From positions 1-37,931 of IMG/VR virus record IMGVR_UViG_3300020183_000215: a stretch of DNA of 37,931 bases. One strand, given 5' to 3'. Both the position numbers and the translations under genes were made by a program. The notes under the pieces were generated by a model. That model saw only the letters and a list, made by a program, of their open reading frames with translations, made no database searches and was not told the DNA's origin. Positions 10,255-22,161 of this stretch are shown here, piece after piece; within the stretch, counting starts at the first letter, position 1; every line of letters starts with the position of its first letter. This stretch comes from a virus.

Positions 10255-10407
10255 ATGAAAGTAATCAAAGTGACAAAAGAGTATTTCGAGACAGAGGACG
10301 AGAAGGTTTATTTCTTCGAGCCTTTGGGAAAAGAAATATCCGTTGAGGATATGCAGAAGATTGTGGACACAAACAAGAAATTAGTTAAGGAGTTGAGAAG
10401 CAAATGA
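10255..10407 (+). CDS. Small acidic/basic protein, first gene of the mom operon
   Basis: A 50-residue protein (starts MKVIKVTKEYFETED) with a good AAGGAG ribosome site. It is highly charged, with a short beta start and a C-terminal helix (EDMQKIVDTNKKLVKELRSK). Its stop overlaps the ATG at 10404 in an ATGA, so it is coupled to the mom ORF. I recognise no family. Possible roles are a partner or regulator of Mom; phage Mu mom also has a small upstream partner gene, com, which activates mom translation, but this protein lacks the Cys zinc-finger residues of Com. The analogy is therefore positional only. Confidence 0.65.
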   Translation: MKVIKVTKEYFETEDEKVYFFEPLGKEISVEDMQKIVDTNKKLVKELRSK

Positions 10408-11042
10408 ATAATTGCGGGGATAGTTTAAAGGTAGAACAAGGAACATTCCAGTTCCAAGATGGCGGTTCGATTCCGACCTCTCCGCTCCATTTTTATATTA
10501 CTGACTTACAGCACAAAGAGGCTAAATCCTTTGTAGAAAAGTGGCATTACTCGCATAGGATACCTACGGGTAAAAACATCTATTTTGGTTTGTGGTGGGG
10601 GAAAGAATTATATGCGGTCATAGTGTATGGAATAGGAGTAAATCCGTATCAGGCAAAATTCTTAAATGTTGACTCAGTAATAGAGATAAAAAGAATGTGC
10701 CGTTCGGAACCAAAGAAGCCCTATGAGTTGTCAAGATTTATTCGCTTGTCCTTGAAGATGGCGAAAAAACTCATGGAGTTTAAAGCAGTAGTTGCTTTTG
10801 CAGACCCAGAGCAAGGGCATGAGGGGACTGTTTATAAGGCTACTGGATTTACGCACGAAGGATATACAAATCCAGAGTGGCATTTGATTGGGGCTGATGG
10901 CGAAAAGAGGCATCGCCGTTATGCCTTCAGGATGGCGCGAAGAAACGGAATAACCGTTTCCGAGGCAAGAGAAGTGCTTGGAATGAAAAGAGTGAAAACA
11001 GAACCTAAACACAGATGGGTTCTCCGGTTAAAACCCGCATGA
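10404..11042 (+). CDS. mom: Mom-family adenine modification enzyme
   Basis: The product matches the Mom family of DNA modification proteins, GNAT-fold enzymes that convert adenine in DNA to N6-carbamoylmethyladenine and protect phage DNA from restriction. Visible family features are KSFVEKWHYSHRIP (residues 41-54), NIYFGLWW, KRMCRSEPKKPYELSRFIRL (97-114) and AFADPEQGHEGTVYKATGF (131-149). Counting from the ATG at 10404, the first 28 or so residues are encoded by the tRNA-like sequence at 10414-10489 and are unlike any Mom N terminus. No ATG, GTG or TTG lies between the tRNA end and the conserved region, so translation must begin at 10404 (ATGA-coupled) or at a rare codon such as the ATT at 10497. 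The stop overlaps the recombinase start (ATGA). A-rich codons and AGA/AGG arginines differ from the flanking genes and suggest transfer. Confidence 0.85.
   Translation: MNNCGDSLKVEQGTFQFQDGGSIPTSPLHFYITDLQHKEAKSFVEKWHYSHRIPTGKNIYFGLWWGKELYAVIVYGIGVNPYQAKFLNVDSVIEIKRMCRSEPKKPYELSRFIRLSLKMAKKLMEFKAVVAFADPEQGHEGTVYKATGFTHEGYTNPEWHLIGADGEKRHRRYAFRMARRNGITVSEAREVLGMKRVKTEPKHRWVLRLKPA
10414..10489 (+). tRNA. tRNA-Gly(UCC)-like gene embedded in the mom operon
   Basis: A 76-base cloverleaf with encoded CCA. The acceptor stem GCGGGGA/TCTCCGC has seven pairs including one G-U. The D arm is GTTT/GAAC with GG in the loop. The anticodon stem GGAAC/GTTCC is perfect but encloses only six bases (ATTCCA), one fewer than normal, with anticodon TCC. 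The T loop is a canonical TTCGATT; the T stem pairs GGCGG with CCGACC only if one A is bulged. Known bacterial glycyl-tRNA synthetase identity bases are kept: G1-C72, C2-G71, U73, C35 and C36. The two defects make normal decoding and firm EF-Tu binding doubtful, while charging remains plausible. It lies inside the N-terminal coding part of the mom ORF on the same strand. It could be a dedicated glycyl donor or a decayed tRNA. Confidence 0.75.
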
Positions 11043-11647
11043 AAATATACAAAATCACCGAAGCCTCTGAATACTTGGGAGTGTCAATAAACACTCTCAA
11101 GACGCTTGCTAATAACGGCAAGATAAACTCTTTCAAGACAACTGGAAGCCATCGGCGTTTTCGTCAGGAAGATTTAGATGCTTTCATGGGCGTTGAGAAA
11201 GAGAAGCAAGAAAAGGTTACGGTGATTTACGCAAGATGTTCAACGGCAAAGCAGAAAGAGAATCTTGAACGGCAAAAAGAACGGTTGATGAAACATGCAG
11301 AAGCCAAAGGTTACAAGTATGTGATGATTGATGAGATTGCCAGCGGGATAAACGAAAAGAGAAATGGCATACACAAGTTAATCAAGATGTGTTTTGAGGG
11401 TAAAGTTGCACGAGTGCTTATTGAATACAAAGATAGGCTTGCTCGATTTGGTTATGAATATCTGGATGCAATCTTTTCAATTCAGGTTGAAGTAATGGAA
11501 GTGAAAGACAAGAAATATGAAGAAGAACTTGCAGAGGATATTATGAAAATTCTTACTTGTTATTCAGCGAGATATTACGGCGCAAGAGGCGGTAGGAAGA
11601 AGAAAAACAAGGCTGAAAATGAGTCTATCGAATCTAATGGAATTTGA
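11039..11647 (+). CDS. tnpA: IS607-type serine recombinase (TnpA)
   Basis: A 202-residue IS607-family transposase. Residues 1-50 form a MerR-like helix-turn-helix (ITEASEYLGVSINTLKTLAN, then GSHRRFRQEDL). The serine recombinase domain follows: VIYARCST with catalytic Ser68, then the YKDRLARFGY arginine motif and the family ending EEELAEDIMKILTCYSARYYG. The ATG at 11039 is chosen over 11015 because it gives the family N terminus and an ATGA overlap with mom. IS607 elements normally carry tnpB next to tnpA; here no tnpB or guide-RNA remnant is seen and mom takes its place. Expected to excise and insert the element without target duplication. Confidence 0.93.
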   Translation: MKIYKITEASEYLGVSINTLKTLANNGKINSFKTTGSHRRFRQEDLDAFMGVEKEKQEKVTVIYARCSTAKQKENLERQKERLMKHAEAKGYKYVMIDEIASGINEKRNGIHKLIKMCFEGKVARVLIEYKDRLARFGYEYLDAIFSIQVEVMEVKDKKYEEELAEDIMKILTCYSARYYGARGGRKKKNKAENESIESNGI

Positions 11648-21211: not shown

Positions 21212-21287
21212 GGGTCTATGGTGAAATTGCATATCACATCGCTCTTCTAAAGCGAAATTTCGGGATGGTATCCCGATAGACCCACCA
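21212..21287 (+). tRNA. tRNA-Arg(UCU)
   Basis: Acceptor stem GGGTCTA/TAGACCC, discriminator A, encoded CCA. Anticodon arm TCGCT-CTTCTAA-AGCGA gives anticodon TCT. The D arm GTGA/TCAC has no GG in its loop (AATTGCATA), and the T loop is ATGGTAT instead of the usual TTCRANN, on stem TCGGG/CCCGA. All stems are perfect, so the gene looks maintained, but the usual elbow contacts are missing. It would read AGA codons, which are common in the mom element and present in phage genes. Confidence 0.85.
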
Positions 21288-22073: not shown

Positions 22074-22161
22074 GGTCGCGTGCATGGAACGGCAGACAGG
22101 GAGCATTCAAAATGCTCTGCTCTTCGCGAGCGTGAGGGTTCGACTCCCTCCGCGACCACCA
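22074..22161 (+). tRNA. tRNA-Leu(CAA)
   Basis: An 88-base class II tRNA. Acceptor stem GGTCGCG/CGCGACC, discriminator A, encoded CCA. Anticodon arm GAGCA-TTCAAAA-TGCTC gives anticodon CAA for TTG codons. Long variable arm GCTC/GAGC, canonical T arm GAGGG-TTCGACT-CCCTC. Only 4 bases separate the CCA end from the next ATG, so processing of the tRNA may create that mRNA 5' end. Confidence 0.93.

Follow-up and report, generated by a model that had tools for sequence, protein, structure and literature searches.

We found that the mom gene of a viral genome contains, within its own reading frame, a tRNA-Gly-like element, which is probably a dedicated, non-proteinogenic tRNA-Gly working in trans with the Mom protein as a glycyl donor. 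The DNA examined here, referred to as the window, is a stretch of 37,931 nucleotides (IMG/VR virus record IMGVR_UViG_3300020183_000215). Mom of phage Mu converts adenine into N6-carbamoylmethyladenine, and the gain of C2H3NO corresponds to exactly one glycyl residue. To our knowledge, the source of the glycinamide-like group added by Mom has been an open question since the 1980s. The sequence features described below, and the recurrence of the tRNA-mom pairing in well over a hundred phage loci, suggest that Mom takes the group from a tRNA loaded with glycine and, by analogy with Mu, N6-carbamoylmethyladenine in DNA may be the product of the window Mom. If true, this would be the first use of an aminoacyl-tRNA to modify DNA, it would answer where the momyl group originates, and a charged-tRNA donor would explain the exact atom count of the Mom product.

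The open reading frame (ORF) in question encodes a Mom family protein (Table 1). It matched PF25680 in the Pfam HMM search with 116.3 bits (curated cut-off 27.1) as well as PHROG 1384 ('Mom-like'), and the Mom domain extends from about residue 28 onwards. The best solved Foldseek match of the AF2 model (mean pLDDT 85.8) was Mu Mom (PDB 8bv8). The catalytic residues of Mu Mom, that is, the invariant His, Arg, Asp and Tyr and the catalytic Ser, are all present, and the residue aligned to Mu S124 corresponds to the serine mutated in the inactive Mu mutant 8bv8. The start codon of mom overlaps the stop codon of an upstream ORF of 50 amino acids (10255-10407) in an ATGA, and the AAGGAG is retained in two homologous loci (L002 and L003) although the flanks further out are unrelated. 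Downstream, the ATG of an IS607-like serine recombinase gene (MerR-type HTH and resolvase domain; 11039-11647) overlaps the mom stop codon; this gene is absent beside L002 and L003, whose common part with the window is the tRNA-mom block only. The Mom domain region (10485-11039) also showed weak profile matches to the C-terminal part of the phage homing endonuclease families phrog_3339 and phrog_559.

Table 1. Features of the mom locus, in window positions
Feature	Position	Strand	Basis or remark
mom ORF, 212 aa	10404..11042	+	Pfam Mom E 1.9e-33; AF2 model
Mom GNAT-fold core	10485..11039	+	H48, R97, D134, Y144 invariant; S110 aligned to Mu S124
Shine-Dalgarno-like AAGGAG before mom	10387..10392	+	Sequence; kept in L002 and L003
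tRNA-Gly-like element including encoded CCA, 76 nt, in frame with mom	10414..10489	+	R1 model 86.5 bits; ARAGORN; Rfam; fold
Acceptor stem 5' strand GCGGGGA (G1 C2 G3 = glycine identity)	10414..10420	+	
D-arm	10423..10437	+	
Anticodon arm: stem GGAAC/GTTCC, 6-nt loop ATTCCA with C35 C36	10440..10455	+	
T-arm; a conserved A bulges out at 10476 (between positions 63 and 64)	10461..10478	+	
Acceptor 3' strand TCTCCGC, discriminator U73, encoded CCA	10479..10489	+	

A sequence-only reading of this DNA had pointed to a tRNA-Gly-like cloverleaf inside the mom transcript. The cloverleaf proved to be real: it was called by ARAGORN (10413-10485, with a 6-nt anticodon loop), scored 30.8 bits with the Rfam tRNA model (RF00005; threshold 29), appeared in full in the minimum free energy fold and was decisively supported by covariation across 51 homologues. 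Its location on the same strand was also confirmed, but 'inside the transcript' understated the case, since the element lies directly 3' of the start codon and within the reading frame itself. ARAGORN called two other tRNAs in the window, tRNA-Arg(TCT) at 21212-21287 and tRNA-Leu(CAA) at 22074-22161, the latter not above the Rfam threshold. Considering that the folding energy of a single sequence was unconvincing (z of -1.7, which is weak evidence alone), covariation was used as the test of the element. Among the 51 homologous elements, 93% of the cells were paired, compared with 75% after shuffling and 42-49% when slid, and changes on both sides were observed in 16 of the 22 pairs, with a covariation score of 0.481 (0.158 shuffled). 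In the acceptor stem, 618 of 623 cells were paired, against a mean of 531 after shuffling. A second set, collected without reference to the tRNA (hereafter tRNA-blind), gave a covariation score of 0.564 versus 0.143, in an alignment fitted to the model. The element is under selection as an RNA, and a chance fold was rejected on the covariation.

The bacterial glycine identity set consists of U73, G1-C72, C2-G71, G3-C70, C35 and C36 (PMC9976931), and all six elements are present in the window. The conservation of acceptor and identity bases anticipated by the sequence-only reading was found: G1-C2-G3, C70-G71-C72, U73, CCA and C35 C36 occurred in 32 of 32 distinct tRNA-blind elements (in one of them, C36 falls in an alignment gap). 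The close homologue L015 carries C73 instead of U73. Of the ordinary tRNAs tested, E. coli tRNA-Gly came nearest by model score, with 54.6 and 49.9 bits as against 39.4 bits for Thr. On the other hand, features of elongator tRNAs are missing. Instead of a 7-nt anticodon loop with U33, the window element has 6 nt, and most members of the class located at the mom 3' end have 7 nt with A33 or G33. The T-stem, uninterrupted in tRNAs that serve EF-Tu, contains the bulged A, which was present in an otherwise fully paired stem in all 32 distinct tRNA-blind elements and is kept while the flanking pairs change in concert. In Staphylococcus aureus, non-proteinogenic tRNA-Gly escapes from EF-Tu via changes at 49-65 and 51-63 (PMC9976931), and the bulge lies in the same region as these changes. 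Many elements of the second tRNA-blind set were only 67-70 nt long and had no D-stem. Three examples at the mom 3' end, each a D-stem-less tRNA of the glycine type and about 69 nt long, are L238:2103-2171, L239:1920-1988 and L304:2088-2157. Judged by these sequence features, the element looks like a glycine tRNA shaped for charging rather than for decoding, although a possible weak point is that the 6-nt anticodon loop might lower GlyRS binding. An ordinary phage tRNA, supporting translation or replacing a tRNA cut by host defence, seems highly improbable: phages often carry tRNAs, including the two others in the window, but the 6-nt loop or missing U33, the bulged T-stem, the D-stem-less forms and the restriction to glycine and to the neighbourhood of Mom do not fit such a role. 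This candidate was rejected on the anticodon loop and T-stem.

The association with Mom was examined from both sides. An RNA-side scan of IMG/VR and GTDB used a pattern for the T-arm, acceptor stem and CCA, with no protein information; the pattern fixed CGCTCCA and the bulge, so that only this tRNA type could be found. At least 125 tRNA-like places with at least 89 distinct tRNA sequences were identified. Among the matches listed, 118 of 125 places overlapped a Mom (PF25680) frame on the same strand, 4 were located 5-465 nt from such a frame, and 3 were on Mom fragments, as judged by eye. Near-identical pattern matches at L079, L107, L125 and L156 (judged not tRNA-like), together with L193, L208 and L210, were set aside. 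GTDB contributed 12 matches to the tRNA pattern, at least two of which were due to chance, and the protein-anchored scan of GTDB gave no matches. The partner proteins were often only 20-35% identical to the window Mom, and all those tested, from both fusion classes, matched PF25680. Mom-anchored, tRNA-blind scans revealed the element at 17 of 65, 45 of 80 and 30 of 80 loci, so that tRNA-Gly-like genes adjoining homologous mom genes, which the sequence-only reading had proposed to look for, do exist; the count of 45 leaves out a 46th match (L308), an ordinary tRNA away from mom. It should be noted that most loci are metagenomic and that ARAGORN misses most elements of this kind. The linkage of the element to Mom genes is near-exclusive, and it occurs in several arrangements.

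In the 5' class, the Mom frame was open through the tRNA in 71 of 71 distinct elements, compared with 9 and 11 for the other frames. Of the ATG or GTG codons within 18 nt before G1, 61 were in the Mom frame and 7 and 17 in the two others, and 15 of these 17 out-of-frame starts were simply 'AT' or 'GT' joined to G1. In 15 distinct close loci, the tRNA was joined to the Mom frame and no ATG was present between the CCA and the WHYS motif, the alternative starts there being only a few GTG at or just before the motif. The tRNA-encoded codons look tolerated rather than needed, as the peptide they encode in the window (residues 1-21) is predicted to be disordered. In the 3' class of the second tRNA-blind set, the tRNA typically begins right after the codons for the conserved PYPK at the Mom C-terminus, and all 32 distinct cases keep the Mom frame open across the tRNA (12 and 10 for the other frames). 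Detached elements (L073, L077, L091, L203 and L207) and one on the opposite strand (L201) were also observed. In Microbacterium phages, the strand opposite to mom carries a neighbouring tRNA-Gly that is annotated and more canonical. In the Arthrobacter phages Shade, Martha and BarretLemon, the mom 3' end overlaps a tRNA with a Gly anticodon that is missing from the annotation. Unannotated tRNAs of this kind, likewise overlapping the mom 3' end and with no bulge in the T-stem, are located at L211:2101-2175, L213:2101-2174 and L225:3083-3156 in cultured Arthrobacter phages (Marthavirus). In a tandem tRNA-mom-tRNA-mom (L074:1299-2549), the two Moms differ from one another and both mom genes have an in-frame tRNA of their own. 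The upstream tRNA-like element at L077:919-1021 has a much extended anticodon arm, and its Mom has its own ribosome-binding site. ParB-like genes are directly upstream of mom in L012, L212 and L073.

These arrangements bear on the strongest rival explanation, namely that the cloverleaf is a cis-acting tRNA mimic in the mom mRNA, bound or cut by RNase P, GlyRS or Mom itself, which would limit a toxic enzyme. The in-frame position right after the start codon and the open frame throughout the 5' class agree with it, as does the toxicity of Mom on artificial expression (PMC12707154), and translation through the tRNA would compete with excision, which leaves room for a cis role. However, it leaves the other positions of the same element (3' end of mom, detached, opposite strand) unexplained, and the encoded CCA, U73 and C35 C36 would be superfluous for merely blocking translation. 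We therefore regard this explanation as unlikely; the variety of positions relative to mom argues for action in trans.

Another possibility is that the tRNA serves as a site of recombination or attachment, carrying mom between phages. At the DNA level, L002 and L003 are about 90% identical to the window across the tRNA-mom unit only, with unrelated flanks, an IS607-like recombinase adjoins mom in the window, and one tRNA occurs with different Moms. On the other hand, no recombinase adjoins the block of L002 and L003 in the sequence read, and only a functional RNA would account for the covariation of the stems, the identity elements and the conserved frame across deep divergence. This possibility appears extremely improbable, and an integration-site remnant was rejected on covariation and frame conservation. 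The identical tRNA sequences with different Moms downstream (L147 and L177) look as if modules had been swapped at the tRNA.

The sequence-only reading had held that homologous mom loci without any tRNA would speak against a donor role. Such loci are many. No such tRNA was found anywhere in the Mu genome, nor beside mom in Listeria, Enterococcus, Vibrio and many other cases, and for most Moms without an adjacent tRNA none was present elsewhere in the genome or contig either. In near relatives without the tRNA (for example, L017 and L024), the ATG is located exactly at the position of the CCA. Thus, the tRNA is dispensable in some lineages; the donor role is not refuted, but the claim is narrowed to a dedicated supply in some lineages only, and the interpretation given by the sequence-only reading is supported in part. 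On a quick Mom tree with long branches, presence and absence of the tRNA required 11 changes, at least seven of them forced by well-supported branches. That the tRNA was gained and lost repeatedly, but always with the same partner, suggests that tRNA and Mom are functionally linked.

On the basis of these results, the following mechanism may be proposed. The host GlyRS would charge the element with glycine, and poor uptake by EF-Tu and the ribosome would leave it free as glycyl-tRNA. Mom would then transfer the glycine from this tRNA to the N6 of adenine in DNA, and the N6-glycyl adduct could convert to the isomeric N6-carbamoylmethyl form via a Smiles-type rearrangement with a five-membered spiro intermediate. 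Because excision of the tRNA would separate the start codon from mom, each transcript would yield one of the two, being used as the mRNA of mom or as the precursor of the tRNA. Nesting of the tRNA in the mom frame would tie enzyme and donor supply together and avoid drawing on the tRNAs that the host needs for translation. Where the tRNA is missing, as in Mu, Mom may use host glycyl-tRNA. On balance, we lean towards the view that all Moms, Mu included, are glycyl-tRNA:DNA-adenine N6-glycyltransferases, and that many phage lineages evolved dedicated, partly D-armless glycine tRNAs in the mom frame. It should be noted that acyl-CoA is the usual donor among GNAT relatives, and for Mom a review from 2021 assumes glycyl-CoA, an acyl-CoA donor (PMC7824862). 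No tRNA linked to Mom or proposed as its donor was found in the open-access literature. If the donor role is true, a dedicated charged tRNA would connect the activated amino acids of translation with DNA modification for the first time. The family also provides tRNAs read as codons in protein genes and phage tRNAs without a D-stem.

Several known systems resemble parts of this one. Mu Mom shares with the window Mom the family, the GNAT fold, the invariant His, Arg, Asp and Tyr and the catalytic Ser, and its C-terminus is the PYPK after which 3'-class tRNAs begin, whereas the Mu genome lacks the tRNA. Leucyl/phenylalanyl-tRNA-protein transferase and FemX have GNAT-related folds and use an aminoacyl-tRNA donor, with a protein or peptidoglycan precursor rather than a DNA base as acceptor. 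The S. aureus non-proteinogenic tRNA-Gly is of canonical shape and is not embedded in the gene of the enzyme. TacT-type GNAT toxins recognize glycyl-tRNA by U73 and G71 (PMC9976931), both of which are kept in the element; unlike the proposed system, they acetylate the charged tRNA and have neither a DNA substrate nor a dedicated tRNA. Together with the GNAT fold of the window Mom, this might suggest that the tRNA is a substrate or decoy acylated by Mom instead of a donor, which we consider very unlikely, as the proteins linked to the tRNA are related to Mu Mom, a DNA-modifying enzyme, and share its catalytic residues, and as a glycine unit is part of the known Mu product. Compared with the preferred reading of the element as a glycyl donor, the cell-wall tRNA-Gly of S. 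aureus is similar in that it is dedicated, kept from EF-Tu by T-stem changes and feeds a non-ribosomal aminoacyl transfer (PMC9976931), and it differs in that the product is peptidoglycan.
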